Below are positions 4,208-21,669 of a stretch of DNA of 64,000 nucleotides, in pieces (the stretch's first letter is position 1; every line of letters starts with the position of its first letter). The notes below the pieces were generated by a model that did not search any database, had not been told where the DNA came from, and worked only from the letters and a program-made list of their open reading frames with translations. A program made the translations under genes and the position numbers. Origin of the DNA: Planctomycetota bacterium (lineage in GTDB: Bacteria; Planctomycetota; Phycisphaerae; WQYP01); contig JAJZCR010000007.1 in the NCBI GenBank assembly GCA_021851715.1, forward strand, positions 1 through 64,000, written 5' to 3'.

Positions 4208-7200
4208 AAAAGAACGTGAAATTAGATGGCAAAAGCTACTGGCGCAGCCTGGATGATCTGGCCGATACGCCGGAATTTCGGCAAATGCTGCATCGGGAAT
4301 TTCCATCGATGGCGGGGGAATGGCTGGATGGCTCGCGCCGGACTTTTCTCAAAATTATGGGGGCGTCGCTGGCGCTGGCCGGCTTGGGCGGTTGCAAAAG
4401 TTGGCCGCGGATGCCCAAAGACACGCTGGCGCCTTATGCCCACCGACCGGCTAATCGCGATCCCGGCGTGCCGGTATATTACACCAGCGGCATGGATTTC
4501 GGCGGTATCGGGCAGGGGATGCTTGTTACCAGCATGGATGGTCGGCCCATTGAGGTGAACGGCAACCCCGGCCATCCGCTCAACCGCGGTTCCACCGATT
4601 TTATTGGGCAGGCCAGCGTGCTTAACGTGTACGATCCGGACCGGAGCCGCAGCGTGCTGATGCGCAGCGGCGGTGCGGATGGCGCACTGGCCGATTCCAG
4701 TTGGGAGGCGTTTGATGCCTTCTGGAAAAAACATGCTGGTTATCTGCACGCCACCAAAGGGCGGCATTTTGCGGTGCTGGCCGGCGAAAATTCTTCCCCC
4801 AGTGTTCATGACATGCGCGAGCGGCTGCTCAAGATGTATCCGGAAGCGTCCTGGTATGAATGGGAACCGATTTCCCGTGACAACGTGCGGCTGGGCACGG
4901 CCATGGCATTTGGCCAGCCGTACCGCGTGGTGCCGAACCTGCAAAATGCCGACGTGGTGCTTTCGCTGGATATGGATTTGTTTGTGGGAGATCCGCTTTC
5001 GATCAAGCTGGCACGCGATTTTGTATCGCGGCGACGCCTGACCGATCCGGAAACCGGCGCAATGGCCAAGTCGATGAACCGGTTGTATGTGGTGGAGTCG
5101 CAGTTCACCAAAACCGGGGCACAGGCTGAAAATGTGCGTCATCGGATACCGGTGGCGGCTCGGGATGTAGCAGCGGTGGCGTGCGCAGTGGCTGCGGAAC
5201 TGGTGCGACAGGGGTTGTCGCTCCCGGCGGCGATTCCGGCAGTGCCAACCGGCATCGCCAAGGCGGATACGGAAGTGATTCGCGCTATTGCCGCCGATCT
5301 GCTTGGGAATAGGGGACGATCCGTGATTGTGGTTGGCAGTCAGCAGCCGCCCGCTGTGCATGCTTTAGCAGCAGCTCTCAATGACGCATTGGGCAATCAC
5401 GGCCGTACCGTGACCTACTATGATGAGCCGATTCCGGAACGCCCGACGCATCTTGCAGATATCCAGGCCTTGGCCGCGGCCATCCGCAAGAAGGAAGTTT
5501 CCACGCTGCTGATTTTAGACGGTAATCCGGCGTACGATGCCCCGGTGGATCTGGACTTTGCCGCATTGCTGAAGACCGTTCCGTTAAGCGTACGGCTGGG
5601 CAATTACGTGGATGAAACCTCGCAACTTTGTACGTGGCATCTGCCCGAGGCGCACTACCTGGAAAACTGGGGCGATGTGCGCACGTTTGACGGCACCGTG
5701 AGCCTGGTGCAGCCGATGATAGCCCCGATTTTTGGGGGTAAGAGCATCATTGAGGTTTTGGCCATTGTGATGCAGGATTCCACCCGCGGCGGTTATGAGA
5801 TTGTGCAAAGGGCCCTGGGCATAAAGTCCAGTGAATGGCGGTGGAAAAAGGCGCTTTTTGACGGCTATGTGGAAAAAACGGCATGGTCGCCGGCCACACC
5901 ATCGCTGACGGTGGGGGGGCTCCATGGCGGTCTAAACAAGTTACTCGCGGTGGCAAGTACGCCGCTTAGCCCGGATAATCTGGAACTCGTTTATATTGCC
6001 GACACCAAGGTTTATGACGGTCGATTTGCCAACAACGGCTGGCTGCAGGAATTGCCCGGCCCGATGACCCGCTTGACCTGGGACAACGTAGCGATGGTGA
6101 ATCCGGTAACGGCGGAAAAGCTGGGTATTAACCCGCACAAAACCAAGATGCTTAAAGTGAGCGTCGGCGGCCGAACGTTGAAGATTCCGGCGTATATCAT
6201 GCCGGGGCAGCCGGAAAATTCCATTGCGATGGCCCTGGGCTATGGCCGCACCAAAGCCGGCAATGTGGGCGATGGGGTGGGATTTGATGTGTACAAAATG
6301 CGCACTGCTGCGGCCTTGAATTTTGAATCCAGTGCCAAAGTGGAAGTGCTGGATGAAGATTATACGCTGGCCACAACGCAGGATCATTTTGTAATGTCCG
6401 TGGTCGGCCAGGAAGCGATTGGTACCCGTGCGCCGGAATTGATCCGGGAAGCCACGTTTGACCAGTGGCAGAAAGATCCGTCCCTGGGCCATAAGAAAAA
6501 GACGGTGGTGCCGTTGTGGGAAGCTCATCGCTTTGACACGGGGTACCAGTGGGGCATGGCGGTGGATTTAACCGCATGCACAGGCTGTTCGGCGTGTGTG
6601 ATTGCCTGCCAGGCGGAAAACAATATTCCGGTGGTGGGTAAGCATCAGGTTTTCATGGGCCGGGAAATGCAGTGGATTCGCATTGACCGGTATTTCCGCG
6701 GCACCGATAGCGGGCAGCCGGCATCCGTGAATCAACCGGTGATGTGCATGCAGTGCGAGAATGCTCCATGTGAAGCAGTATGCCCGGTGGGTGCCACTTC
6801 CACCGCTCCTGACGGACTCAATACCATGACCTACAACCGGTGCATCGGTACCCGTTATTGCATGAACAACTGCCCGTACAAAGTGCGGCGGTTTAACTAC
6901 TTTGACTACAATGCCGGCACTCTGAAAAATCAGTATGAGCCGAATCTGTTACGCGCCCCCATGAACGATTTGGAGGCTTTGCAGAAAAATCCGCAGGTTT
7001 CCATCCGCATGCGCGGCGTGATGGAAAAATGCACGTATTGCGTGCAGCGAATCGAAATTGGCCGCGTCACGGCGGAACGGGATGGCAACCGGCGGATTCG
7101 CGATGGAGAAATAACCCCGGCATGTGCCCAGGCGTGTCCGACGCAGGCGCTGGTATTTGGAAATATCCGGGACCCCAGGAGTAGGGTGTCAATTTTATAT

Positions 7201-7332
7201 GGTCAGCGGCGCTGCTATGGCCTTCTGGATGAAGAACTTGGAACCCTGCCGCGGACGCGATATCTGCCGAAGATATCCAATCCCAATCCGGCCCTGGCGG
7301 AAGTGACTTATACGTCCCTGGGATCGGAGTAA
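4195..7332 (+). CDS. actB: Alternative complex III subunit ActB, molybdopterin-like/iron-sulfur fusion
   Basis: A 1045-residue protein of the complex iron-sulfur molybdoenzyme superfamily. Near the N-terminus it has a Tat signal, SRRTFLKIMGASLALAGLGGC, whose cysteine could also be lipidated. The large middle part is the molybdopterin-oxidoreductase-like domain, which in ActB proteins binds no cofactor. The C-terminal part is a four-cluster ferredoxin domain: CTGCSACVIAC (from residue 795), CMQCENAPCEAVCP, CIGTRYCMNNCP, CTYCVQR and CAQACP. It passes electrons from quinol oxidation towards ActA and ActE. The start overlaps the end of actA by 13 bases. It is close to the usual family length, with no break. 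Confidence 0.95.
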   Translation: MSQIEKNVKLDGKSYWRSLDDLADTPEFRQMLHREFPSMAGEWLDGSRRTFLKIMGASLALAGLGGCKSWPRMPKDTLAPYAHRPANRDPGVPVYYTSGMDFGGIGQGMLVTSMDGRPIEVNGNPGHPLNRGSTDFIGQASVLNVYDPDRSRSVLMRSGGADGALADSSWEAFDAFWKKHAGYLHATKGRHFAVLAGENSSPSVHDMRERLLKMYPEASWYEWEPISRDNVRLGTAMAFGQPYRVVPNLQNADVVLSLDMDLFVGDPLSIKLARDFVSRRRLTDPETGAMAKSMNRLYVVESQFTKTGAQAENVRHRIPVAARDVAAVACAVAAELVRQGLSLPAAIPAVPTGIAKADTEVIRAIAADLLGNRGRSVIVVGSQQPPAVHALAAALNDALGNHGRTVTYYDEPIPERPTHLADIQALAAAIRKKEVSTLLILDGNPAYDAPVDLDFAALLKTVPLSVRLGNYVDETSQLCTWHLPEAHYLENWGDVRTFDGTVSLVQPMIAPIFGGKSIIEVLAIVMQDSTRGGYEIVQRALGIKSSEWRWKKALFDGYVEKTAWSPATPSLTVGGLHGGLNKLLAVASTPLSPDNLELVYIADTKVYDGRFANNGWLQELPGPMTRLTWDNVAMVNPVTAEKLGINPHKTKMLKVSVGGRTLKIPAYIMPGQPENSIAMALGYGRTKAGNVGDGVGFDVYKMRTAAALNFESSAKVEVLDEDYTLATTQDHFVMSVVGQEAIGTRAPELIREATFDQWQKDPSLGHKKKTVVPLWEAHRFDTGYQWGMAVDLTACTGCSACVIACQAENNIPVVGKHQVFMGREMQWIRIDRYFRGTDSGQPASVNQPVMCMQCENAPCEAVCPVGATSTAPDGLNTMTYNRCIGTRYCMNNCPYKVRRFNYFDYNAGTLKNQYEPNLLRAPMNDLEALQKNPQVSIRMRGVMEKCTYCVQRIEIGRVTAERDGNRRIRDGEITPACAQACPTQALVFGNIRDPRSRVSILYGQRRCYGLLDEELGTLPRTRYLPKISNPNPALAEVTYTSLGSE

Positions 7333-7397
7333 AGCAAAGGGCGAGGGTCGGTTGTTTGAGGTGCCGTGTGGCCGGGCGAAATTGTGGAATGTGAATT

Positions 7398-8840
7398 ATG
7401 ACCAGTATACCGGTAGATCAGGATATCAGTCGCGAGTTCGATAATTCGTTCGACCGCATTGAGGGAGAAACGCCGCTGGTGGGTGGCGATTCGAGTTTTC
7501 ACCGCATTACGGAAACCATTTGCGGTGTGGCCGAGGCCCGGCGTGCGCCCAAGACGTGGTACGTGGCACTGGCGATATCGCTGTCGCTGGTGGGGCTGCT
7601 GGGCGTCATGGTTCTTTATGAGCTGTTTACGGGCGTCGGCTTGTGGGGCAATAACAACACGGTGGGGTGGGGCTTCCCGATCATCAACTTTGTGTTCTGG
7701 GTGGGTATCGCGCACGCGGGAACCATGATTTCCGCCATTTTGCTGGTGTTCCGGCAGAAGTGGCGCACGGGTATCAATCGTTTTGCCGAGGCCACAACGG
7801 TTTTTGCCGTGGCCTGTGCGGGTTTGTTCCCGGCGATTCACGTGGGGCGGCCCTGGCTGGCCTACTGGTTGATACCGTATCCCAATGTCATGGGTGATTG
7901 GCCTAATTTTTTCAGTCCGCTGCTGTGGGATGCCTGTGCAGTCGGTACGTACGCGACGGTATCAGGCCTGTTTTGGCATACCGGCATGATTCCGGACCTG
8001 GCGGCGTTTCGTGATCGGTCCACTTCGCGCATCCGCCATACTATTTACGGAATTTTGTCTCTGGGTTGGCGTGGTTCCGCCCGCCATTGGCATATTTATG
8101 AGCGGGCGAACATGTTGCTCGCGGTTTTGTGTACGGGGCTGGTGCTGGGTGTAAGCTCCACGGTGAGCACGGATTTTGCGGTGGGGCAGATACCCGGCTG
8201 GCACGAGGCGATTTTTCCGCCTTACTTTACCGCCGGAGCCTTATTCAGCGGGTTTTGTACCGTGCTGGGCCTGGCGATTCCGGCGCGCTATCTCTTTGGC
8301 CTGAAAGATTTCATCACCAATCGACATATTGATAACCTGGCGAAAATTGCATTGTTGTTCAGTTCGATCATGCTGTACATTTATGTGATCGAATTTTTCA
8401 TCGCCTATTACAGCGGCAGCGGGTACGAGCAATTGCCCTATTTAAACCGGCTGTTCGGCCCGTATTGGTGGCTGGGCTGGGGCATCCTGTTTTTTAACGG
8501 GGTATTTCCCCAAGTGTTCTGGTTCCAATGGGCCAGAACCAATCCGTGGATTTGCGTAGCGATCGGCATCTTCTGCAATCTGGGGATGTGGATGGAGCGC
8601 TTTGTCATCATCATCATATCGCTGCAGCGAGATTTTTTACCGTCATCGTGGCACATGTTCTTCCCAACCTGGGTGGATTTTTGTACGCTGGCGGGTAGTT
8701 TCGGCCTGTTTTTCACGCTGTTCCTGCTGTTTTGCCGGTTCTTGCCCATGGTGGCCATGTCCGAAGTAAAGGCGGTCGTGCCCCAAGGCATACCGAAACA
8801 TGATGTTGATGGCACAAGGCCGCAGATGGAGGGCCATTGA
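7398..8840 (+). CDS. actC: Alternative complex III subunit ActC, NrfD-like membrane protein
   Basis: A 480-residue polytopic protein of the NrfD/PsrC family with about ten membrane segments. Examples are WYVALAISLSLVGLLGVMVLYELF, then FWVGIAHAGTMISAILLVFRQ, and late helices around FFIAYYSGSGYEQ and WMERFVIIIISL. ActC and ActF form the integral core of alternative complex III. ActC is thought to carry the quinol-binding site and, with charged residues in its helices, a possible proton path. It lies 65 bases after actB in the same direction. The short N-terminal cytoplasmic part (ISREFDNSFDRIEGETPLV) is usual for the family. Confidence 0.93.
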   Translation: MTSIPVDQDISREFDNSFDRIEGETPLVGGDSSFHRITETICGVAEARRAPKTWYVALAISLSLVGLLGVMVLYELFTGVGLWGNNNTVGWGFPIINFVFWVGIAHAGTMISAILLVFRQKWRTGINRFAEATTVFAVACAGLFPAIHVGRPWLAYWLIPYPNVMGDWPNFFSPLLWDACAVGTYATVSGLFWHTGMIPDLAAFRDRSTSRIRHTIYGILSLGWRGSARHWHIYERANMLLAVLCTGLVLGVSSTVSTDFAVGQIPGWHEAIFPPYFTAGALFSGFCTVLGLAIPARYLFGLKDFITNRHIDNLAKIALLFSSIMLYIYVIEFFIAYYSGSGYEQLPYLNRLFGPYWWLGWGILFFNGVFPQVFWFQWARTNPWICVAIGIFCNLGMWMERFVIIIISLQRDFLPSSWHMFFPTWVDFCTLAGSFGLFFTLFLLFCRFLPMVAMSEVKAVVPQGIPKHDVDGTRPQMEGH

Positions 8841-8867
8841 TCCGCGGTTGCGGACGGGTGAACATAT

Positions 8868-9434
8868 ATGAGTGACGACGTGATGATGGTAAGCAACACA
8901 ACTGGCCCCGAACTTTTCGGTTTAATGGCCGAATACCCGAATGTGGATTCGCTGCTGGCGGCGGCCAAGAGGGTGCAGGCGGAAGGTTATACGTGCTGGG
9001 ATTGCCATACGCCGTTTCCCGTGCATGGCCTGGATAAGGTGATGAAGATCAAGCCCACCATTCTGCCCTGGCTCTCGCTGGGCGGGGCCTTGATCGGTGT
9101 TTTCATTGGCCTGGTGTTACCGCTGCTGATCAACGGGATTGCCTACCCGTTGAATTTCTCGGGTAAGCCATATTGGGGTTTGCCCGCCAATGTGCCGGTG
9201 GCGTTTCCGCTGTTTATTCTGCTGGGGGTGCTTTCCACGGTGGTCGGCTTTTCCCTGCTCTGCGGACTGCCTAAATTCTATCATCCGCTTTTTACCGTCA
9301 AGCGATTCAAGCGGGCCACCGATGACGGATTGTTTTTAGTCATTGAGGCGGCGGATCCGCGTTTTGATGTCATTCGCACGCGGCAACTTTTGGAAAGCCT
9401 TGGTGCGGTCGCGTTGGACGAGGTTAAGGACTGA
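8868..9434 (+). CDS. actD: Alternative complex III subunit ActD (DUF3341)
   Basis: A 188-residue subunit with a soluble N-terminal part, two membrane helices (about residues 65-85 and 105-130), and a soluble tail. The hallmark is DCHTPFPVHGLDK followed by the first helix (LPWLSLGGALIGVFIG), as in DUF3341 proteins. ActD is a structural membrane subunit without known cofactors. Oddly, residues 43-47 read CWDCH, a formal heme c motif. The position is conserved in the family as WD..TPFPVHG and is expected to face the cytoplasm, so heme attachment is unlikely. It lies between actC and actE with short gaps. Confidence 0.92.
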   Translation: MSDDVMMVSNTTGPELFGLMAEYPNVDSLLAAAKRVQAEGYTCWDCHTPFPVHGLDKVMKIKPTILPWLSLGGALIGVFIGLVLPLLINGIAYPLNFSGKPYWGLPANVPVAFPLFILLGVLSTVVGFSLLCGLPKFYHPLFTVKRFKRATDDGLFLVIEAADPRFDVIRTRQLLESLGAVALDEVKD

Positions 9435-9437
9435 ACC

Positions 9438-10199
9438 ATGGTGAACCGGGTTTTAATTATTGGAAGCCTGATACTGGCCGCGCTGATTCCGCTGGCGGTC
9501 ATTGCACTGCGGCGCAACGAGCATTCCCCCACTCCGCGGTTTCATATCATGCTGGGGATGGACAAAATGGCCTATCGCAAACCGCAGCGTCCGAGCAAAT
9601 TTTTTGCGGATGGCCGGGCCATGCGTCCGCATATTCCCGGCACCCTGGCCCGGCAGGATTTTATCTACAACAATGAAGCCCAGATGCGAGTTACGCCGAA
9701 CAACTGGAAACTTGATCATGAGGTGTTAAACACGCAAGCCCGGTATGAACGCGTATTGCTTGGCCAGGTGCTTAGCGGAGGGCAGGGCCGGTTTATCAAC
9801 CACATTCCGATTCCTGTTACCAGGGCTTTGCTCCATCGCGGGCGGCAGCAGTTTGATATTTTTTGCATGCCGTGTCATGGGGCCAACGGTCGCGGTAATG
9901 GGCTGGTCAATCAATGGGTGCACAAGTTGCGACAGGCAGGCTCTCCGGATGCAGGTACGTGGGTCCGGCCGACCGACTTGACCAGTCCGGCTGTAACCTT
10001 TCTTCCGGATGGCGGAATTTACAGCATTATCGTCAACGGTGTCGCCGGGATGCCGGCCTATAAGGACCAGATCCCTGTTGTGGATCGCTGGGCGATTGTG
10101 GCTTATGTGCGGGCGCTGGGCCTTGGCAGCAAAGCGATAGCGGCAGCCCGGCTGCCGGTGCAGGTGCGGGCATCCCTGGCCGCCGGTAAAAAGCATTAA
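9438..10199 (+). CDS. actE: Alternative complex III subunit ActE, monoheme cytochrome c
   Basis: A 253-residue cytochrome c. An N-terminal anchor or signal (VLIIGSLILAALIPLAVIAL) is followed by a stretch typical of ActE (RPHIPGTLARQDFIYNNEA) and one heme site, CMPCHGANGRGNG. A later methionine in GVAGMPAYKDQIPVVDRWA is the likely axial ligand. ActE hands electrons from the complex to the oxidase or a mobile carrier. The gene starts four bases after actD, and its stop overlaps the actF start (TAATG), so translation is coupled. Confidence 0.92.
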   Translation: MVNRVLIIGSLILAALIPLAVIALRRNEHSPTPRFHIMLGMDKMAYRKPQRPSKFFADGRAMRPHIPGTLARQDFIYNNEAQMRVTPNNWKLDHEVLNTQARYERVLLGQVLSGGQGRFINHIPIPVTRALLHRGRQQFDIFCMPCHGANGRGNGLVNQWVHKLRQAGSPDAGTWVRPTDLTSPAVTFLPDGGIYSIIVNGVAGMPAYKDQIPVVDRWAIVAYVRALGLGSKAIAAARLPVQVRASLAAGKKH

Positions 10200-11509
10200 T
10201 GGAGAAGAACGTGTCGCAGGAATCCAGCAGTTTTTCGGATCGGCAGGTACACCTGGAACAGTTTGGTTCGCGGGCGTTTTCCGTGTCGCTGATCGTGGGA
10301 TTGGCGGCGCTGGCGGTGGCGGTGTTTCTGGGCGTGTCCGTGCATGACAACATGCAGACCTTTTTAATTGGTTATCTGATTGCCTGGTGCTGTCTTTTCA
10401 GTGTGGCCGCGGGCAGCCTGTATTTTCTGATGATTCACCATGCGTTCAGGGTTTATTGGAGTGTGGTGATCCGCAAACTGGTGGAAGCGCTGGCGTGTAA
10501 CATGGTGACTGTGGCCCTGTTATCCGTGCCGATTCTGCTTGGATTGCACGAGCTTTATGTCTGGAGCCACTCGGCTTATATGCATTCCGATCCGCTGCTG
10601 ACCCGGAAGCTATCCTTCCTCAACGAGCCGTTTTTTCTGGTGCGGGTGTTCATTTACTTTGTGGCGCTGGCGGGAATGGCTTTTTATCTGCGCAGCAAAA
10701 GCATTGAACAGGATCAGACCGGTTCCATCCAGCCCCTGCAGGCGATGTATAAAAACAGCCGCTGGGGCATGGTGATGATGTTCTGGATCATCAACTTTGT
10801 CGGGATTGACTTTATCATGTCGCTGGATCCTAAGTGGTACAGCTACTTGGCGGGCGGGTACTTTTTCGCGGCGGTGATGGTGATGGCCATGGCGGCCATC
10901 CCACTTTTTGCGATCTGGCTGCAGGATAACGGCCGTTTGGAACAGGCCATCACCGTGGAACATTATCACGATATGGGTAAGTGGGTTTATGCCTGGAATC
11001 TTATCTGGGCGTATCTGGCTTTTTGCCAATATCTGCTTACCTGGTACGGCAATATTCCGTGGGAAACGTCATTTTATGTGGCCCGAATGCTGGGTCCGTG
11101 GTGGATTATCACGCTGGTTTTGCTTTTTGTGCATCTGATTATCCCGGGTTTTGCCATGATGTCCCGGCGGGTGAAGCGGAACCGGTCGTTGCTGGCCTTC
11201 TGGTGCGTGTGGCTGCTGGCTGCCGAGTGGCTGGATTTTTACTGGCTGATTGCCCCGACGCTGTGGATTAACAATCGCGAGGCGAAAACCGGATACATCA
11301 GCCCGCACGATCCGTATAAACTCATGGGGCCGGCGCATAGCATTGTGTGGCTGCCATTGCGGGCCACAGCCATTGAAATTGATGTTTTATGCGTGGTGGG
11401 CCTAGGCGGAATTTTTGTGGCTTCCGCGCTATACTTCCTGCGTGACAGGGCTCTGATGCCGATGAAAGATCCAAAACTGGCGGCATCGCTGGCGTTTGAA
11501 AATTATTGA
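10199..11509 (+). CDS. actF: Alternative complex III subunit ActF, NrfD-like membrane protein
   Basis: A 436-residue integral membrane protein related to ActC, with about ten hydrophobic helices. These include VSLIVGLAALAVAVFLGVSV near the start and a central block around WGMVMMFWIINFVGIDFIM. ActF pairs with ActC in the membrane core of alternative complex III and is thought to contribute to proton movement. The start codon ATG at 10199 overlaps the actE stop. The segment YHDMGKWVYAWNLIWAYLAF is typical of ActF proteins. It completes the canonical A-F order. Confidence 0.93.
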   Translation: MEKNVSQESSSFSDRQVHLEQFGSRAFSVSLIVGLAALAVAVFLGVSVHDNMQTFLIGYLIAWCCLFSVAAGSLYFLMIHHAFRVYWSVVIRKLVEALACNMVTVALLSVPILLGLHELYVWSHSAYMHSDPLLTRKLSFLNEPFFLVRVFIYFVALAGMAFYLRSKSIEQDQTGSIQPLQAMYKNSRWGMVMMFWIINFVGIDFIMSLDPKWYSYLAGGYFFAAVMVMAMAAIPLFAIWLQDNGRLEQAITVEHYHDMGKWVYAWNLIWAYLAFCQYLLTWYGNIPWETSFYVARMLGPWWIITLVLLFVHLIIPGFAMMSRRVKRNRSLLAFWCVWLLAAEWLDFYWLIAPTLWINNREAKTGYISPHDPYKLMGPAHSIVWLPLRATAIEIDVLCVVGLGGIFVASALYFLRDRALMPMKDPKLAASLAFENY

Positions 11510-11534: not shown

Positions 11535-12296
11535 ATGTCTGATGAAGCAAAAAAATATGCCGGATCCGATCATCCGCTGCCGGAAGGCGTTCGGGATGAT
11601 ACCAACATCGCCACCATTCTTCTGACCATGCTGTTTTCGTCTTTGCTGGTGGTTGTGTTTGTCATCGGCGTGATGGCCTACTTTCATCGTGAAAAAAATG
11701 CGCTGACTCTGAAAAAGGCCGCATTGGCCGTCAACCAGAGCCAGGCGATTATTCAACGTCAGACGGCGGACCTTGCTCCCCACTGGGTGAACCAGAAGCG
11801 GGGCACGGCCACCATGGGCATAGAGCTGGCGATGGATGAAGTGGTGCATCAGGCGAATCCGGGCAGTCCGTCGCCGCTGTTGGTGGTGAAGCACAAGGCC
11901 ACCAAGGTGGCAACCGCTCCCGGCAAGGCCAAAGCGGAACCGCTGAGTGTCATGGGCAAGAAGCTGTACGCCACTTTGGGCTGCATCGGATGCCATACCG
12001 TGGATGGCAAGCCGGGTGTCGGTCCGACCTGGAAAAATCTGGCCGGCTATCCGGAGCATTTAACCAACGGCAAAACAGTGATCGTGGATTATAAGTTTCT
12101 CCGGACCATGATCTTGCATCCTGGAAAATTTTTGGTGAAAGGGGCTCCCGCAGGCGTGATGCCCGACGTTTACTATGCCCAACTGGCCGGAAAAAAACAT
12201 CCACATGAGACGAAGCTTAACGCCTTGATTTGGTACATCAACACGCTAAGCAACAAGAGTTCCAAGGCCACGCAGCCGCCAGTTCCCAATAAATAG
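11535..12296 (+). CDS. Membrane-anchored monoheme cytochrome c
   Basis: A 253-residue protein with one N-terminal transmembrane helix (about residues 22-46, NIATILLTMLFSSLLVVVFVIG), a linker of about 90 residues, and a C-terminal cytochrome c domain with CIGCH and PGVGPTWKNLAG. GVMPDVYY supplies the probable methionine ligand. The module closely resembles the two cytochrome c domains at the end of coxB, especially the last one (shared MILHPGK, LVKG, AGVMP, LIWY). It lies 25 bases after actF and before the SCO gene, so it may bridge the act complex and the caa3 oxidase. That bridging role is inferred. Confidence 0.85.
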   Translation: MSDEAKKYAGSDHPLPEGVRDDTNIATILLTMLFSSLLVVVFVIGVMAYFHREKNALTLKKAALAVNQSQAIIQRQTADLAPHWVNQKRGTATMGIELAMDEVVHQANPGSPSPLLVVKHKATKVATAPGKAKAEPLSVMGKKLYATLGCIGCHTVDGKPGVGPTWKNLAGYPEHLTNGKTVIVDYKFLRTMILHPGKFLVKGAPAGVMPDVYYAQLAGKKHPHETKLNALIWYINTLSNKSSKATQPPVPNK

Positions 12297-12452
12297 GCTG
12301 GGTAAGCGGTGATCAACCGGCCGGGGTAAGGGCCAGGATTGGTTTGGGTTTGTTGGGTAATTTTAGTAGAGTACAGGGCGTAGCGGTGTGGTTTGCCGCA
12401 CATGGCGGGGCAACGGTGGGAGGTTACGATGAGGGTTGTTAGGAAATAAGCC
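12297..12452. other. Intergenic gap with a solo element-end-like sequence
   Basis: A 156-base gap, the largest inside the respiratory cluster. Bases 12433-12451 (GGGTTGTTAGGAAATAAGC) match 198-216 of the palindromic element with one mismatch. The AGGA of this repeat also serves as the Shine-Dalgarno for the SCO gene at 12453. No partner inverted copy was found in the gap. It may be a remnant of an element or a chance match. A secondary promoter for the oxidase genes could lie here, but none was clear. Confidence 0.35.
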
Positions 12453-13367
12453 ATGGGTAGCAGGCATCATTCAATAGCCCGGCTGAATCGGGGTCCGATG
12501 GGGCAAATTCCCTATCGCCGGGTTCTGCTGCTTATGCTTGTGATCGGCTTATTTGGCGGAGTGCCGGTGTATGCCCAGAATTACCTCGGCGGCTTTCAAA
12601 GGGCGGCGCATGACCAGCATGAGGCCCAGGTGGCGGGCATTACCCAGCACATTGGGGCGAAAGTGCCGTTAAACCTGGCCTTTCGCAACTCCCGCGGAAA
12701 ACTGGTGACATTGCAGCGCTATTTCAAGCCTGGCCGCCCCGTCATCCTGAATTTCATCTATTTTGGATGTCCGGGGGTATGCCCGTTTGTCATGGATGGC
12801 CTCGCAAAAGCCGTGAACAAAATGCCGCTGGTGGCAGGGTCTGATTATGATGTGGTCACGATCAGCTTCAATCCTCATGATACCCCTAAGGTGGCCGCGG
12901 AGAAAAAAATTGAGTATGGCAGCATGTTGCACAGTGCTGCGGCGATTAAGCATTGGCATTTTCTCACCGGTCAGGAGCCGGCCATCAAGGCCATTACCGC
13001 GGCCGTGGGTTTTCACTATGTGTGGCTCAAGCAGTTGCAGCGCTATGACCATCCGGCCGCCATATTTGTGCTCACGCCGGGTGGCCGGGTTTCTCAGTAT
13101 TTGTATGGCGTCCTCTATCATCCCACGACGCTGAAATTAAGCCTGGTGCAGGCCGGAGATCACACGCTTGGCACGGCTTTTGATCAGGTCTTGCTGTTGT
13201 GCTGCTCGTTTAATCCTGCGACCGGGCGCTATTCGGCGATTGCGGTGCGGGTGATGACGCTGTCCGGCGTACTGGTGGTGGTGGCGCTGGGAGCGATGTT
13301 TGGCTCTTTGTATTATTGGGAACGCAAACACCGCCGAAAGAATAGTTCACCGGGAGCTTCCACTTGA
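12453..13367 (+). CDS. SCO1/SenC family copper chaperone
   Basis: A 304-residue thioredoxin-fold protein that delivers copper to the CuA site of cytochrome oxidase. A signal or anchor (VLLLMLVIGLFGGVPVYA) is followed by the SCO core: FIYFGCPGVCP with the CxxxC copper ligands (C106, C110), and the third ligand His near residue 200 in YDHPAAIFVLTP. A second hydrophobic helix near the C-terminus (VLVVVALGAMFGSLYYW) would make it two-pass anchored. AGGA nine bases before ATG 12453 supports the start. Its last codon and stop overlap the TTG start of coxB. The position fits assembly of the neighbouring caa3 oxidase. Confidence 0.9.
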   Translation: MGSRHHSIARLNRGPMGQIPYRRVLLLMLVIGLFGGVPVYAQNYLGGFQRAAHDQHEAQVAGITQHIGAKVPLNLAFRNSRGKLVTLQRYFKPGRPVILNFIYFGCPGVCPFVMDGLAKAVNKMPLVAGSDYDVVTISFNPHDTPKVAAEKKIEYGSMLHSAAAIKHWHFLTGQEPAIKAITAAVGFHYVWLKQLQRYDHPAAIFVLTPGGRVSQYLYGVLYHPTTLKLSLVQAGDHTLGTAFDQVLLLCCSFNPATGRYSAIAVRVMTLSGVLVVVALGAMFGSLYYWERKHRRKNSSPGAST

Positions 13368-14878
13368 GTTTCAATCTTTTGCATGGCGCACCAAACCTGA
13401 TTCAGATGATGTCCCTGAAGTTGCCGGGAGTGCTGGCCGCATGGGGTTTGCCGCATTCCGATGCGGTCACCGGGTTGGACGTACAGTTTTTGTGGGATTT
13501 CATTTTGGGAGTGGCGGTGTTTTTCACCGTGCTGATTGTGGTGCTGATGGTCTATTTCAGTATTCGCTATCATGCCAAAACCAAAAATCAGGTGGGCGAT
13601 CATGGTCACACCCACAATACTCCACTGGAACTTACATGGTCGATTATTCCCTTGATTTTGCTGATGATCATGTTTGTACTGGGGTTCAAATACTATCTGA
13701 ATATGGATACGGTTCCGTCCGGCGCGTATAAAATTGACGTGCAGGCGAAGCAATGGAGCTGGACGTTCGTCTATCCCAATGGCGGCATCAGCGACAAATT
13801 ATATTTGCCCGCCGGACGGCCCGTGCGATTGGATATGACTTCTTCGGATGTTCTCCATGGATTCTGGATACCGCGGCTCAGCATTCAAAAAGATGTGGTG
13901 CCGGGGCGGGTGATGAGCGTGTGGATTGAGGCAAAAAAGCCTGCACGAATGTGGCTGCAATGTGCAGAGTATTGCGGCTCCGGCCATTCCGAGATGCGTG
14001 CGCCGGTGATTGTGGAACCCTACGCGCAATTTCGTAAGAGCGTTCATACCATTGCGGATATATGGGAACAAAATAGCAAGCCCCTGTCCTTGACGGAGGT
14101 GGGGCGAAAGCTGCATGTGACGCTGGGGTGCGTCGCCTGTCACAACATGACGGGTGCTCCCGGCGGCGTCGGGCCGACCTGGAAAAATCTGGCTGGTTCC
14201 AAGGTGCATGACACCAACGGTCAAGTTGTGGTGGCGGACTATGCATACCTGAAAAACGCAATTATCCATCCTGGTCATTTGAAAGTGAAGGGTTATCCCC
14301 GTGGCATTATGCCCAATACCTTTGCTGCCCAGCTTCAGAAAATATCACCCAACGGCAGAGCATTGGACGCGTTGATTGCCTATATCAACTCCAAGAGCAA
14401 ATATGCGAATCAGCAGTCCCTGCCTCCGGAATTGAGAAAATCATCCACCCCGGTTCCAAAGCCGGTGAAGGTGAAATCCGCACCGGCCAAGCCCCCTGGT
14501 CTGCCGGCGGCGGCGCTGCCACTGGCGGCCAAAGGCAAGGTGCTGGTGCAGACCTTCGGTTGCACTGGCTGCCATTCCACCACCGGAGCCCTGGGGGTTG
14601 GACCGACTTGGAAAGATCTGGCCGGGTCGCCGGTCACGCTGACCAGCGGCAAGGTGGTGACGGCTGATTACAGCTACCTGCGGGACATGATTCTGCACCC
14701 CGGTAAACTGTTGGTAAAGGGGGCCACCGCCGGTGTGATGCCGGGAACCTACGAGGCCATGCTTTCCGGCCCGAAGCATCCAGCCGAGAAAAAACTGCAG
14801 GCTATAATATGGTACCTGAATTCGCTAAGTGACCATGCGAATAAAGCGAGTTGGCCGCCGGGCGGCGGGGGGAATTAA
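13364..14878 (+). CDS. coxB: Cytochrome c oxidase subunit II fused to two cytochrome c domains (caa3-type)
   Basis: A 504-residue subunit II. Two transmembrane helices (about residues 40-65 and 85-108) precede the cupredoxin domain with a complete CuA set: H165, then CAEYCGSGHSEM with C200, E202, C204, H208 and M211. It then continues with two cytochrome c modules whose heme sites are CVACH (from C256) and CTGCH (from C400), each with GVGPTWK.LAG and a late GIMP or GVMP methionine. Ordinary caa3 subunit II has one heme domain. The TTG start at 13364 is preceded by GGGAG and overlaps the SCO stop; ATG at 13406 is an alternative. It accepts electrons for the oxidase. Confidence 0.93.
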   Translation: MSFNLLHGAPNLIQMMSLKLPGVLAAWGLPHSDAVTGLDVQFLWDFILGVAVFFTVLIVVLMVYFSIRYHAKTKNQVGDHGHTHNTPLELTWSIIPLILLMIMFVLGFKYYLNMDTVPSGAYKIDVQAKQWSWTFVYPNGGISDKLYLPAGRPVRLDMTSSDVLHGFWIPRLSIQKDVVPGRVMSVWIEAKKPARMWLQCAEYCGSGHSEMRAPVIVEPYAQFRKSVHTIADIWEQNSKPLSLTEVGRKLHVTLGCVACHNMTGAPGGVGPTWKNLAGSKVHDTNGQVVVADYAYLKNAIIHPGHLKVKGYPRGIMPNTFAAQLQKISPNGRALDALIAYINSKSKYANQQSLPPELRKSSTPVPKPVKVKSAPAKPPGLPAAALPLAAKGKVLVQTFGCTGCHSTTGALGVGPTWKDLAGSPVTLTSGKVVTADYSYLRDMILHPGKLLVKGATAGVMPGTYEAMLSGPKHPAEKKLQAIIWYLNSLSDHANKASWPPGGGGN

Positions 14879-14933: not shown

Positions 14934-16652
14934 ATGACAACAACCACAGCGGAAATCGGCGAACACGCTCGGGAAGAAATTCCGGTTGGTGGCAATTATC
15001 TCAATCAAGGCAAGGGCATTAAGTCCTGGCTCTTTACACTGGACCATAAGCGCATCGGCTTGATGTATTTGATTTCCGGTCTGACGATGTTTTTCATCGG
15101 CGGAATGCTGGCCATAGTCATCCGTACCCAACTGCTGGTGCCCAACGGGTTGATTTTTCATGGTAGTTATGAGGCGTATAAACACTACAACCAGGTATTT
15201 ACCCTGCATGGCATCATCATGGTATTTATGGTCCTGGTTCCCATTCCGCCGGGGGCGCTGGGAAATTTTGTTCTGCCTCTGATGATCGGGGCTAAGGATG
15301 TAGCCTTCCCGCGCCTGAATCTCTTGAGTTATTACTTGTATGTAACCGGCGCGATTATGGCGGTGGTTTCCACCCTGCTGGGCGCGGTGGATACTGGCTG
15401 GACTTTTTATACTCCTTTCAGCATTCAGACTGAAACGTATGTGGTATGGATGCTGCTGGGGATTTTTCTGCTGGGCTTCAGTTCCATTCTCACGGGGCTT
15501 AACTTCATCGTGACCATCCACAAACTGCGGGCTCCCGGAATGAAGTGGTTTCGGATGCCGGTTTTCGTTTGGGCCTCGTATGCCACATCCATTATCCAGG
15601 TGGCGGCCACGCCGGTGCTGGGCGTTACCCTGCTGCTGCTGGTTGCGGAACGGGTCATGGGAGTGGGAATTTTTAATTCGGCACTGGGTGGAGATCCGGT
15701 GCTGTTTCAGGACTTTTTCTGGTTTTATTCACATCCGGCCGTGTACATTATGATTTTGCCGGCGATGGGTATCGTCGGGGAAATTATCACGGTCTTCAGC
15801 CGCAAACCCATCTTCGGCTATAAATTTATTGTCATGAGTTCACTGGCCATTGCCCTGATTGGTTTTGTGGTATGGGGCCACCATCTGTTTGTCAATGGAC
15901 AATCGGCGGAATGGGATGCCATTTTCAGCTTTATGACCTTTTTTGTGGCAGTGCCTTCGGCCGTAAAGGTGTTCAATTGGCTGGCAACCATGTACAAGGG
16001 TGCGATTTCGCTTTCCACCCCGATGCTCTACGCCCTGTCCTTTATTGTGTTGTTCACCATCGGCGGGTTTACCGGCGTTATTCTGGGAGCTTTGGCCACC
16101 AACGTGGTGCTCCATGATACCTACTTTGTGGTGGCCCACTTTCATTATGTGATGATGGGTGGAACGATCATTGCATTCATCGGCGGGCTGCATTACTGGT
16201 GGCCTAAAATTTTTGGGAAGATGTATAACGAAACCCTGGGCAGAATCACATGCGTGATGTTGTTTATCGGCATCAATCTGACGTTTTTCCCCCAGTTTAT
16301 TGTGGGTGCCGAAGGGATGCCGCGGCGCTATGCCACGTATTTGCCCCAGTACCAGCCGTACATGATCGCCTCCACTGTTGGCGCTTACATTCAACTGGCG
16401 GCATTTTTGCTGATGGCGGGCTATTTGGTTCATTCGCTGGTTCGAGGTAAAAAAGCCCCGGCTAATCCATGGGGTGCTTCCACGTTGGATTGGTCGATGG
16501 CCTCGCCGCCAACCACCGGCAATTTTGACGAAATGCCCGTGGTGACCAGGGGGCCATACCATTATGATGACATGGAATACGATGGCCGGTTGGGTGGATT
16601 TGTCCATGTCGAGCCGGTGCCGGCGCTGGCTGGTGCGGGTGTTGGGCATTGA
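14934..16652 (+). CDS. coxA: Cytochrome c oxidase subunit I (A2-type)
   Basis: A 572-residue heme-copper oxidase catalytic subunit with about 12 helices. Heme ligands are seen in LHGIIMVFM and HFHYVMMGG, and the CuB/cross-linked Tyr region in [16 protein letters not shown] and [10 protein letters not shown]. Helix VI reads YSHPAVY instead of the GHPEV form, so the D-channel glutamate is absent and the Tyr-Ser pair marks the A2 subfamily, common for caa3 oxidases. The start at 14934 has GAGG eight bases upstream; an upstream ATG at 14889 would add 15 residues unlike the family. It follows coxB directly and reduces oxygen while pumping protons. Confidence 0.95.
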
Positions 16653-16754
16653 TCGGGCAGAGTAGTTGGAAAATGGGTTTGGGGTTAACTTAAGCAGTCT
16701 TTTGATGCTGTCAAAACGACCCGTGGTGAAGATCAGACAGATAAGTGAGAAAAG

Positions 16755-17633
16755 ATGAGTGAAAACGCCGGCGCGACCTTGACTCTTTCCAGCCCGGAAG
16801 AAATGGCAGGCCGACATTTGGCCCATCATTTTGACACGCCGCAGCAGCAATTTGACTCCGGCAAACTCGGGATGTGGCTGTTTTTGGGGACGGAATTTCT
16901 TCTTTTCAGCGGCTTGTTCTGCGCCTACGCAGTTTACCGCATGCTGCATCCGGAAATATTTCTTTATGCCTCTCGCTACCTGGATCCGGTTTCGGGTGCT
17001 CTTTGCACCCTGGTGCTGGTAACCAGCGGTTTTACCATGGCTTGGGCTATTCGCTGTGCCCAATTGGGCAAGCGGACTGGTTTGATTATTGCGTTGCTTT
17101 TAACCATTGCCGGCGGTTTCGGATTTTTGGCTATTCACGGCTATGAATATTTTGAAGAATATCAGCAGCACCTGATGTGGGGCACCAATTATCACCCGGC
17201 TGTGACCGCTCCTCAACAACAGGTGGTGGTGGCAAAAGCCATGGCGACTGCCGGCAACTGGCATCAGCTTGATCAACTGGGCAAGCAGGGGTACCTCGTA
17301 GCTCATTCTAATATTGCCCCGGCGGCGATCGGTCCGGCCGGTCCGGCGTTGGTGCAGCGGCCGGCCGCGTCTGTCACGGCAGCGCCCGTCGCAGCGGTGG
17401 CCGATCAGCCCCACAATGTACAGATATTTTTTGGCATCTATTTTTTAATGACCGGGCTGCACAGCATTCACGTGATTGTCGGCATAATCCTGCTGACCTA
17501 CTTGTTGGTGCGGGCCATTCGCAAGGATTTTGGCCCCGGCTATTACGCTCCGGTCGATTTCATCGGGTTGTATTGGGGGGTGGTGGATATGATTTGGATG
17601 TTTTTGTTCCCCTTGCTGTATTTGATACGCTAA
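16755..17633 (+). CDS. coxC: Cytochrome c oxidase subunit III
   Basis: A 292-residue membrane subunit with LGMWLFLGTEFLLFSGLFCAY near the N-terminus. Family signatures later on are GLHSIHVIVGIILL and DFIGLYWGVVDMIWMFLFPLLY. It binds lipid and stabilises proton uptake by subunit I. Between helices (about residues 150-220) there is an extra Ala/Pro-rich loop (IAPAAIGPAGPALVQRP) not usual in subunit III. It lies about 100 bases after coxA, in a gap without other genes. Confidence 0.93.
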   Translation: MSENAGATLTLSSPEEMAGRHLAHHFDTPQQQFDSGKLGMWLFLGTEFLLFSGLFCAYAVYRMLHPEIFLYASRYLDPVSGALCTLVLVTSGFTMAWAIRCAQLGKRTGLIIALLLTIAGGFGFLAIHGYEYFEEYQQHLMWGTNYHPAVTAPQQQVVVAKAMATAGNWHQLDQLGKQGYLVAHSNIAPAAIGPAGPALVQRPAASVTAAPVAAVADQPHNVQIFFGIYFLMTGLHSIHVIVGIILLTYLLVRAIRKDFGPGYYAPVDFIGLYWGVVDMIWMFLFPLLYLIR

Positions 17634-17670
17634 GCGGGCCGTACGGTTGGAACGACAAGGAGAATTGATT

Positions 17671-18078
17671 TTGTCAGATCACGCAGAACATGCTCATGGC
17701 CCCGTGGCCCCGTCCCACGCGAAAATTGTACCAATACGGAATTTGGTGGCGGTGTGGGTTGCCCTGTGCGCCCTGACGGTGCTGAATTTGCTGTTGGACA
17801 AGGTGCATCTGCACGGATTCAGTGTGGTCGTATCTTTGGCCATCGCGTCGGTCATGGCTATTATTGCCGCGATGTATTTCATGCATCTGCGCTATGACCA
17901 CCCTTTTTACCTTTCATCGCTGATTCTGGTGGTTATTTTCATCACGATTTTCATCGTCTTTTCCGCCCATGATACCCTCCAATATAAATCGCAACTCATA
18001 AAAGGGCAGGCCCCGGCAATGGTTCAGGCCGCACAGGGGCAGGCTAAAACCGCGGCGTTGCCCGCGACCACGCCGTAA
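17671..18078 (+). CDS. coxD: Cytochrome c oxidase subunit IV-like membrane protein
   Basis: A 135-residue protein with a His-rich N-terminus (SDHAEHAHGPVAPSHAK) and three hydrophobic helices (NLVAVWVALCALTVLNLLL, VVSLAIASVMAIIAAMYFMHL, LSSLILVVIFITIFIVF). It ends in an Ala/Gln tail. Size, helix count and AMYFMHLRYD agree with prokaryotic cytochrome oxidase subunit IV. TTG at 17671 is chosen as start because AAGGAG lies eight bases upstream; a TTG at 17647 would put this site inside the gene. It follows coxC closely. Confidence 0.85.
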   Translation: MSDHAEHAHGPVAPSHAKIVPIRNLVAVWVALCALTVLNLLLDKVHLHGFSVVVSLAIASVMAIIAAMYFMHLRYDHPFYLSSLILVVIFITIFIVFSAHDTLQYKSQLIKGQAPAMVQAAQGQAKTAALPATTP

Positions 18079-18161
18079 TTGGCCCTGTCCTGCTCCACCA
18101 TGCCTGCATTGGGGAGGGAGCGGGCCACTGTTGTCGGATCCATTGGTTGTCGGAGCACAAC

Positions 18162-18845
18162 ATGACAGACGACATCGACTCGCCGCTACGTGCTTTCAAC
18201 GCTGCAACCGGGCCTGTGCGCCAGCCGATGTTATTTGTGCCGGGAGCCGGAGCGATGGGGGTGGGTCTGCTGGTCTTTTCACTCTCGGTTCTTTTTGCCT
18301 CCAGCTTAATAGGTTATTTGTATATTCGCGCCCAGGCACCCATGGTTGCGCACCTGCGTCTTCCCAAACTGCTCTGGGTAAGCACGGCCGTTTTGTTGCT
18401 GAGTTCCATCACTATCCACGCGGGGATGCGGGCGATACAACGGGGGCGGGAATCGCAATTGTCGCGGAATCTCGCAGTCACGTTTGGACTTGGGCTGCTT
18501 TTTTTAATTTTACAGGCCATCAGCGCAGTGGACATCTTCCACGCCTTGCAACTTTCCGACATGGCCATGGCGCGGGTGGGCATACGCAACACCGGTGGAC
18601 TGGCCCGCAGCCTGACCCCGGTGGTTCAGGCCCATGTGTTAATTGCGGTTTTTTACGTATTTACCGCCTTGCATGCGCTGCACGTCATCGGTGGCCTGAT
18701 TCCGCTGGGTGTGGTGCTGCGGCGGGCGATCAAGGGTGGTTATTCGCGCAATTATTATCCCGGTGTAAGATATTGCAGCATTTACTGGCATTTTTTGGAT
18801 GCTGTCTGGCTGGTGATTTTTGTGGTCCTGTTGGCCACGTTTTAG
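18162..18845 (+). CDS. Second cytochrome c oxidase subunit III-like protein
   Basis: A 227-residue polytopic protein of the CoxC/CyoC type with five or more helices. GLLVFSLSVLFASSLIGYLYIRAQ at the start and ALHALHVIGGLIPLGVVLRRAI plus SIYWHFLDAVWLVIFVVLL at the end match subunit III signatures. ATG 18162 has GGAG six bases upstream, so it is preferred over a TTG at 18147. Together with coxC at 16755 the cluster holds two subunit III-type genes. The role of the extra copy is unknown. It may replace or supplement coxC, or serve in assembly. It is the last plus-strand gene before the minus-strand ABC importer. Confidence 0.82.
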   Translation: MTDDIDSPLRAFNAATGPVRQPMLFVPGAGAMGVGLLVFSLSVLFASSLIGYLYIRAQAPMVAHLRLPKLLWVSTAVLLLSSITIHAGMRAIQRGRESQLSRNLAVTFGLGLLFLILQAISAVDIFHALQLSDMAMARVGIRNTGGLARSLTPVVQAHVLIAVFYVFTALHALHVIGGLIPLGVVLRRAIKGGYSRNYYPGVRYCSIYWHFLDAVWLVIFVVLLATF

Positions 18846-18912: not shown

Positions 18913-19779
18913 TCAGGCTTCATCAGGCTGCGCGGCCGGAATTAGCTTCATAGGCCGTCTTCCCGTTGCCGCAGGCCAGCGTGTGGAAAACCAGCGGTGG
19001 CGGATATATCGAAACATTCTGGCGCTGGTGAATAACACTGCGCCCAGGGAGCCGACAAAAAATCCAATCGGCCAGTTGCTCCAGAACGACAAGGCAATGG
19101 CAAGCCATATCATGCCCACGGAAAATATCACCGCCAGCAGCAGGGCCTGTAACGGACGGGCCGAGAGGCTCTGCGCCGCCGCGGCCGGCGCGATGAGCAA
19201 ACTGAACACCAGCAGAGCACCCACCACCGGCATGGCCATGGCCGTAACCAGCCCCAGCAAACCCAGAAAAAGAATATCAATAACTTCCGCGCTGATGCCA
19301 CGCGATATGGCCAGTTCCGGGAATGCCGATTGCAGCAGCAAGGGACGGTACAGACACAGCGCCCCAACCAGCACCAATGAGGCAATGGTGGCCACCGGCC
19401 ATAAATCCGCCGCGGAAACGCCCAGCACCTGCCCGAACAGCAGGGAAAACACCGCCGGTGCGTAGCTGTTGGTCATGCTTAACAGCAGCGATCCCACCGC
19501 CAGGAGCGTAACCAGCACCAACCCGGCCGCCACATCCTTCCGCCCCAGTTTCTGGAGCTGGTGCAGCAGCGCCACGGCGATGGCGACGAAGCCCAGCAGT
19601 CCCCACAACGCCTTAATTCCCAGAAGCTGCGCCGCTGCCGCGCCCGGAAAAGTTGCCAGTGGCAAGGCATGAGCCGCAAAGGCCGATCGCCGCAACACCA
19701 CGAAAAATCCCAGGATGCCCGCCGTCACCGCGATGATGGTGGAGGCGATCCAGGTATGAATCATAAAGGCTTCGAACAT
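18913..19779 (-). CDS. Zn/Mn-type ABC transporter permease (second)
   Basis: A 288-residue membrane permease of the ABC-3 (ZnuB/MntB) family with about eight helices. Patterns include RRSAFAAHALPLATFPGAAAAQLLG (the coupling region near the N-terminus) and VVGALLVFSLLIAPAAAAQSL. ATG 19779 is taken because GGAGGT lies ten bases upstream. The gene follows the sister permease at 19787-20692, which ends within its leader. Two different permease genes suggest a heterodimeric channel. C-terminal residues past about 265 are basic and variable. Confidence 0.88.
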   Translation of the reverse strand: MFEAFMIHTWIASTIIAVTAGILGFFVVLRRSAFAAHALPLATFPGAAAAQLLGIKALWGLLGFVAIAVALLHQLQKLGRKDVAAGLVLVTLLAVGSLLLSMTNSYAPAVFSLLFGQVLGVSAADLWPVATIASLVLVGALCLYRPLLLQSAFPELAISRGISAEVIDILFLGLLGLVTAMAMPVVGALLVFSLLIAPAAAAQSLSARPLQALLLAVIFSVGMIWLAIALSFWSNWPIGFFVGSLGAVLFTSARMFRYIRHRWFSTRWPAATGRRPMKLIPAAQPDEA

Positions 19780-19786
19780 ATTTGTT

Positions 19787-20692
19787 TTAACCTCCGGCAT
19801 GGGCCGCCATCTGGCTGGGCTTGGCGGCGCGCCGACCGAGCACGTACTGCAAGGGAACGCTGGTCAGGTAGCTTAAAAAGATAATCGTTACCACAAAAAA
19901 ACTGACGGGCCATGCGTGCCCGGCAAACCAGTAATAGCTTTCATACGCCATCCAGATGCCGCCCCATACCGCCGCAAGTCCCAGAAGGATCGCCAAAAAG
20001 ATAGCCACGCCTGGCCGCCGACTGATACGCACAACTGCGCCAGCCGGCCCGATGACCAGCGCCGAGGCCAGTACCGCACCTACCGAAAGGGCGGCCAAAG
20101 CTACTGCCGCAGATAGCGTCAGCAGATGCAGCAAGCCCACCCACCTGGTGGAAATGCCCCGTGTGGTGGCCAGTTCCGGATCTACCATGCACAGCAGGAG
20201 CGGCCTGTACAGGATGGCCATCATGGCCAGAGCCGCGGCGGCCACCATGATGGCCGGCCATCGCAGACTGGCGGGGAAGGTAAACATGGATCCAAACATT
20301 ACCATGACCGCCGCTCCTGTGGTGCTGGTGGTGGTCATATCCAGATACAGAAAAAGTGCCGAAAGCCCGATGCCGGCTCCCAGTACAATGCCGGTTGCCA
20401 CGTCCTGCTCGCGTGCCCGGCGCACCCCCAGAAATTCCAGGCTCACCGCCGCAATCCCGGCAATTCCAAGAAACCCCACCAGCGGGCTGATGCCCAGAAA
20501 AAATGAGGCCGAACCACCGGCGCTGCTGACATCTCCCAATGCGTGACCGGCAAAGGCGTAGCCACGCAAAATGGTGAACACGCCGATCACGGCACATACC
20601 ACCGCAGCACTGCTGCCCACCAGCAAGGCTGTCTGCACGGAACCGCTGCGGAGAAAACTCCAGTGTAAAATGTGGGCCAGCCAGGTCAACAT
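19787..20692 (-). CDS. Zn/Mn-type ABC transporter permease (first)
   Basis: A 301-residue permease of the same family as its downstream neighbour. It has GYAFAGHALGDVSSAGGSASF near the N-terminus and SVGAVLASALVIGPAGAVVRIS, typical of metal-ion ABC-3 permeases, and about eight or nine hydrophobic helices. It begins immediately after the stop of the ATPase gene (20693) and belongs to the operon SBP - ATPase - permease - permease read leftwards from 22611. It would form the membrane channel for a divalent metal, probably zinc or manganese. Confidence 0.88.
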   Translation of the reverse strand: MLTWLAHILHWSFLRSGSVQTALLVGSSAAVVCAVIGVFTILRGYAFAGHALGDVSSAGGSASFFLGISPLVGFLGIAGIAAVSLEFLGVRRAREQDVATGIVLGAGIGLSALFLYLDMTTTSTTGAAVMVMFGSMFTFPASLRWPAIMVAAAALAMMAILYRPLLLCMVDPELATTRGISTRWVGLLHLLTLSAAVALAALSVGAVLASALVIGPAGAVVRISRRPGVAIFLAILLGLAAVWGGIWMAYESYYWFAGHAWPVSFFVVTIIFLSYLTSVPLQYVLGRRAAKPSQMAAHAGG

Positions 20693-21583: not shown

Positions 21584-21669
21584 GGTTATCATTGCTCCGT
21601 ACGTTTGGGCCAATCGTCAACGCTCCGCATCTTTACGATCGGGATGGTTCACGGGATCGACCGCGGCCA

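Follow-up and report, generated by a model that had tools for sequence, protein, structure and literature searches.

How do electrons pass from complex III to the terminal oxidase in an organism whose respiratory operon encodes several cytochrome c domains between the two, and where did these domains come from? The 64,000 nucleotide stretch of Planctomycetota DNA analysed here (the window; positions 1 to 64,000 of contig JAJZCR010000007.1) raises both questions. A preliminary description made from its sequence had noted a stand-alone membrane cytochrome c and two C-terminal heme domains of the oxidase subunit CoxB, lying between an Act complex (alternative complex III, ACIII) and the CuA center, and had proposed that they arose by domain duplication and form a row of hemes.

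The ACIII-oxidase operon

The window contains a complete ACIII-oxidase operon with the gene order actA-F, actG-cyt, SCO, coxB, coxA, coxC, coxD and a second subunit-III-like gene (Table 1). Its actA-F part encodes a pentaheme, QrcA-like ActA, a monoheme ActE and an ActD that matches Pfam PF11821 (E=2e-55). The coxA product (COX1, E=2e-152) is the only one detected genome-wide, and the genome has this one heme-copper oxidase plus a bd oxidase. No bc1 cytochrome b was detected in the genome, which is a draft of 154 contigs and 88% complete, so that absences from it carry little weight. The second subunit-III-like gene, at 18147-18845, ends the oxidase operon and is kept in most relatives. Immediately past it, metal ABC transporter genes (18913-22611) lie on the opposite strand, where two ZnuB-like permeases, an ATPase and a ZnuA-like binding protein were assigned by eye only.

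Table 1. Features of the ACIII-oxidase operon (positions in the window)
Feature	Position	Strand	Remarks
actABCDEF, alternative complex III	3491-11509	+	Open reading frames; synteny kept in relatives
actG-cytochrome c fusion gene	11535-12296	+	253 aa; CIGCH at aa 150
ActG part of fusion	11535-11864	+	N-terminal segment; one transmembrane helix; W(V)N...(I)xxAM-type end; homologous to the heme-less protein of the actF-SCO gap
Heme module F	11943-12254	+	CIGCH 11982-11996; Met ligand 12159-12161; Pfam Cytochrom_C; PDB 1w2l, E=8e-14
SCO1/SenC copper chaperone	12453-13367	+	Pfam PF02630, E=6e-10
coxB, diheme (ccaa3-like) subunit II	13364-14878	+	504 aa; TIGR02866 CoxB above cut-off
CuA domain	13721-14020	+	Pfam PF00116; ligands H165, C200, E202, C204, H208, M211
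Heme module M1	14078-14404	+	CVACH 14129-14143; Met 14309-14311
Flexible M1-M2 linker	14432-14506	+	25 residues; Pro/Lys/Ala-rich
Heme module M2	14510-14833	+	CTGCH 14561-14575; Met 14738-14740
coxA, coxC, coxD and second subunit-III-like gene (remaining oxidase operon)	14934-18845	+	Open reading frames

Three related heme modules

Three homologous modules, here called F, M1 and M2, are found where the preliminary description had placed them (11.94-12.25, 14.08-14.40 and 14.51-14.83 kb); all are class I cytochromes c, and all carry the motif set that it had listed, GVGPTWK(N/D)LAG, DY.(Y/F)L, HPG, G(V/I)MP and I(W/A)Y. No relative departs from the CXXCH or from the methionine of the MP motif. 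Pairwise alignments of the modules score 274-380, whereas shuffled sequences reach at most 58, and a search of the whole genome with M1 finds only F and M2 (E about 1e-28 and 1e-27; the next match has E=0.23), so the three are nearer to one another than to unrelated cytochromes c. The module outside CoxB is, as had been proposed, nearest to the last CoxB module, with 61% identity between F and M2 as against 50% between F and M1; M1 and M2 are 51% identical. ActE aligns with the modules no better than shuffled sequences do, which rules it out as their origin. The nearest solved structure is PDB 1w2l, the heme domain of Rhodothermus marinus caa3 subunit II, and identity to it over the printed fragment is 41% for F, 38% for M1 and 45% for M2.

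The actG-cytochrome c fusion

The cytochrome described as stand-alone is not a plain one, as its first 110 residues are ActG and the CoxB-type heme module follows them. Examined relatives without the fused heme encode, in the gap between actF and SCO, a heme-less, single-helix membrane protein of ~100-195 residues that ends in an IPIDxAM-like motif. This family matches PDB 8k9e_G, "ActG" (E=4e-5), and in a profile comparison by hhalign it pairs with residues 1-110 of the window cytochrome (96.8%, E=2.4e-10). Neither the profile of the cytochrome's anchor (CytF anchor) alone nor a combined ActG and CytF-anchor profile (E=0.13) found ActG in the PDB, so the link from anchor to ActG runs through the heme-less intermediates. 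One of these, the heme-less ActG of genome G006 (lineage g3), is similar to the anchor of the fused form (anchor HMM E=4e-18), and G006 is sister to all fused forms in a tree of ActC-ActF; on this Act backbone tree the fusion is a single change on a fully supported branch (100*). The actG gene of Chloroflexus lies behind the remaining act genes, and its copy in the respiratory cluster stands ahead of SCO and the oxidase genes (PMC3150298); the fusion gene, between actF and the SCO/cox genes, occupies the same position. Together, the gap-protein, tree and gene-order evidence identifies the window protein as an ActG-cytochrome c fusion. The ActG of R. marinus is a cofactor-less single-helix subunit that was detected by mass spectrometry and is absent from the map (PMC5928083); the window protein has a C-terminal CXXCH module with a conserved Met, and it is for this reason named an ActG-cytochrome fusion and not plain ActG. 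Because module F is joined to an ACIII subunit, it would be tethered to complex III. No earlier report of such a fusion was found in the open-licence literature.

The diheme CoxB

The coxB gene starts with a TTG codon that overlaps the SCO stop. The two heme motifs of its product, CVACH at aa 256 and CTGCH at aa 400, both follow the CuA domain, whose ligands are all present and are invariant in 15 sequences. The best fold match of the CoxB model is 2yev_B, the Thermus thermophilus caa3 subunit II, and this match and that to 1w2l indicate a C-terminal cytochrome c domain of the caa3 kind. CoxB also shares with the ccaa3 oxidases the trait of two similar CXXCH domains beyond CuA (51% identity). 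The origin reported for ccaa3, a duplication inside subunit II that is not strictly part of the definition, does not fit the CoxB modules here (see below). The linker that joins M1 and M2 varies in length among relatives, from 25 to 53 residues, with Pro, Ala, Ser and Lys abundant, and in the CoxB model its pLDDT drops under 50 (residues 360-378); the AlphaFold models are single-chain models of modest confidence (pLDDT 64 and 55).

Distribution among relatives

The window organism belongs to a set of uncultured Phycisphaerae, and its close relatives are metagenome-assembled genomes labeled Planctomycetota or Phycisphaerae; judged by record titles only, several of them have names suggestive of acid mine drainage sites and one is labeled as from a sulfur cave. 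Surveys covered 28 genomes of the order, 248 genomes in all at the class level and 392 in all at the phylum level. The operon order actA-F, actG-cyt, SCO, coxB, coxA, coxC, coxD is conserved across the order. Genera g1, g2, g4, g5, g6 and g8 combine the fused cytochrome with a two-heme CoxB, g11 combines it with a one-heme CoxB, and g7, g9 and g10 have neither the fused cytochrome nor the two-heme CoxB. From g3 (G006), with its heme-less ActG, no CoxB was recovered. Sister lineages retain a heme-less ActG and, where CoxB was seen, it has one heme. Beyond the order, the class survey turned up no protein matching the fusion over its full length, and the phylum survey no comparable diheme CoxB; the 20 longest CoxB frames from elsewhere in the phylum have one CXXCH each. 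The fusion evidently arose once, in one order of uncultured Phycisphaerae.

The g11 loci (L051 and L052) combine an ActG-cytochrome with a one-heme CoxB, yet this genus branches from within the two-heme lineages; M2 must have been either lost in g11 or gained more than once elsewhere. The order thereby offers a natural series, from heme-less ActG with one-heme CoxB, through ActG-cytochrome with one-heme CoxB, to ActG-cytochrome with two-heme CoxB, that should be useful for studying a shift in III-IV coupling from a diffusing to a tethered carrier.

The same heme module also occurs elsewhere in these relatives. At L069, L070, L071, L074, L076-L081, L058 and L072 it is fused to a multi-helix membrane protein, encoded downstream of a ba3-like oxidase with a short subunit II of about 180-197 aa; six of these ba3-operon modules were placed in the module tree, where they form one clade beside F and M2. 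In G006 it is fused to a CoxB-like lipoprotein (L083:552-1820) that has apparently lost its CuA ligands, and a nuoH-like gene is adjacent.

History of the modules

The module tree contains 79 modules, in groups named by gene position and not by the tree; it rests on 120 alignment columns and has long branches, so its details are provisional. M1 groups with the single modules of one-heme CoxB proteins (g8 M1 with the single module of its sister genus g11, 99/93) and is, on this evidence, the ancestral caa3 heme domain. M2, F and the ba3-operon modules lie on the other side of a branch from M1 (93/86). Within that part of the tree F and M2 modules group lineage by lineage (g4 F with g4 M2, 99/93; g5 F with g5 M2, 100/97; g8 M2 with g11 F, 99/86), and F-M2 identity is higher than M1-M2 identity in 19 of 19 loci. 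The AU test rejects a single clade of all CoxB modules (p=0.0011). Forcing M2 into one clade is rejected as well (p=0.0005 and 0.00014), and so is the same constraint on F (p=0.002).

The simplest history would be an ordinary in-tandem duplication by which CoxB doubled its own heme domain, the cytochrome outside it being a third, independent copy. Diheme CoxB proteins with two similar domains are already known from Desulfovibrio and Shewanella (PMC3899249), and the M1-M2 identity of 42-60% across loci would agree with such an event, but the rejected CoxB and M2 clades and the greater likeness of M2 to F in every locus make it improbable. Duplication as such, proposed at the outset, stands with the homology of the modules, and the module-level phylogeny that had been suggested as a check allies F with M2; what falls is the simple tandem copying of M1 into M2, and its rejection is the firm part of this sequence-based history. 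That the repeats are instead false modules assembled into a metagenome-derived genome, a draft in 154 contigs, is barely conceivable: the same layout is present in more than a dozen separately assembled genomes of different isolates, which refutes an artefact, and the modules differ mutually at 40-50% of their residues.

With M2 nearer to F in all loci and tandem duplication rejected, M2 was evidently copied from, or converted by, the ActG-cytochrome; provisionally, the module entered CoxB from there in several copying events or in a single one that gene conversion followed. Codon identity at identical residues is 35-61% between F and M2 and 28-55% in cross-genus comparisons; this is about the cross-genus level, with a slight excess only in g4 and g8, which rules out recent gene conversion at the DNA level, and any exchange would therefore be old. 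This history has heme domains transferred from a subunit of one respiratory complex to a subunit of another, and we found no earlier record, in the open-licence literature, of module exchange across the III-IV interface.

A proposed electron path

The expected placement of the modules between ACIII and the oxidase is borne out, with F on ActG and M1 and M2 on CoxB. We consider it likely that the locus encodes an ACIII-caa3 type pair of complexes III and IV in which a single kind of cytochrome c module makes up the path from ActE/ActA to CuA and occurs along it three times, once on ActG, anchored in complex III, and twice on CoxB, anchored in complex IV. Menaquinol would be oxidised by ACIII, and electrons would run through the ActA hemes to ActE, which would pass them to the ActG heme, straight to M2, or both; M2 would swing on its linker to M1, and M1, sitting on CuA in the manner of other caa3 oxidases, would reduce CuA. 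In R. marinus, ActG belongs to ACIII, and ActE hands electrons straight to caa3 (PMC5928083). ActE is dispensable in Flavobacterium johnsoniae (PMC8552683), which leaves the exact donor uncertain. The long, variable linkers and their low pLDDT favor swinging domains over the rigid row of hemes first envisaged; swinging, as proposed for the sixth heme of F. johnsoniae ActA (PMC8552683), fits better than a rigid wire. That F and M2 of one genome recurrently resemble each other suggests a common docking surface. Tethered modules on both complexes would stand in for a diffusing cytochrome c, and with one type of heme domain on both, the two machines probably pass electrons through matching tethered hemes and not through a free carrier. 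A point against the carrier-free reading is that the window's own genome encodes a further small cytochrome c (L153:2824-3309; G000 C138), hydrophobic near its N-terminus, which could be a soluble carrier.

Two rival readings give these hemes other roles. The ActG-cytochrome could act outside ACIII, as a free, membrane-anchored carrier of the cytochrome cy type that diffuses between ACIII and oxidases; its topology of one membrane helix, linker and heme domain is similar, and the presence of the same module on ba3-like oxidase operons of relatives (L069-L081) means that it can serve several partners. We regard this as unlikely, as the anchor is homologous to ActG, which is found with purified ACIII (PMC5928083) and is present in the ACIII entry 8k9e, and the gene retains the actG position. 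Alternatively, the hemes could lie off the main route from ACIII to CuA, as a branch or entry point for other periplasmic donors or as an electron buffer. A branch at a terminal heme has been proposed for cbb3 oxidases and for ActE (PMC8552683), and the titles of the records of relatives, seemingly from acid mine drainage and a sulfur cave, would suit such a function; the modules, however, lie exactly on both partners of the ACIII-oxidase operon, and we give this role about the same small chance as the cytochrome cy-type carrier.

The path with three tethered modules also bears on ActG itself, an ACIII subunit of unknown function that is missing from some Act clusters: a heme carrier placed on it suggests that ActG is near the side where the oxidase docks. 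More tentatively, and with somewhat less than even confidence, we propose that repeated copying or gene conversion from the ActG-cytochrome to CoxB M2 has kept the heme module alike on both sides of the III-IV interface, giving a matched pair of tethered "plugs" that hard-wires the complexes together. If true, this would be a carrier-free III-IV link distinct from the Rhodothermus, Flavobacterium and actinobacterial types.

Comparison with known systems

Diheme CoxB proteins and the coupling of ACIII to caa3 are already known. The R. marinus ACIII-caa3 supercomplex (ActA-G) shares the operon logic of the window, resembles it in the 1w2l-type module and shows direct transfer from ActE to caa3; there, however, ActG is cofactor-less and subunit II has one heme c, whereas here ActG has a heme module and CoxB has two. 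The ActG proteins of PDB entries 8k9e and 8k9f and of Chloroflexus aurantiacus are related to the fusion through N-terminal homology, seen by way of intermediates, and through the gene slot before SCO, and they differ from it in that a C-terminal cytochrome c module is added here. The ccaa3 oxidases of Desulfovibrio vulgaris and Shewanella oneidensis share a CuA subunit II with a C-terminal extension of two similar heme c domains (PMC3899249); these were read as a simple duplication, whereas here M2 is allied with the ActG-cytochrome and the oxidase is encoded beside ACIII. In the F. johnsoniae ACIII-aa3 system a tethered extra heme domain of complex III has likewise been proposed as donor to the oxidase, but it is the mobile sixth heme of ActA and the oxidase is without heme c, whereas here ActG carries the extra heme and CoxB carries two hemes c. 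Finally, in the actinobacterial bcc-aa3 supercomplex with its diheme QcrC, covalently tethered hemes replace free cytochrome c between complexes III and IV (PMC8361435), as proposed here, although that complex III is unrelated and its bridging hemes are all on complex III.
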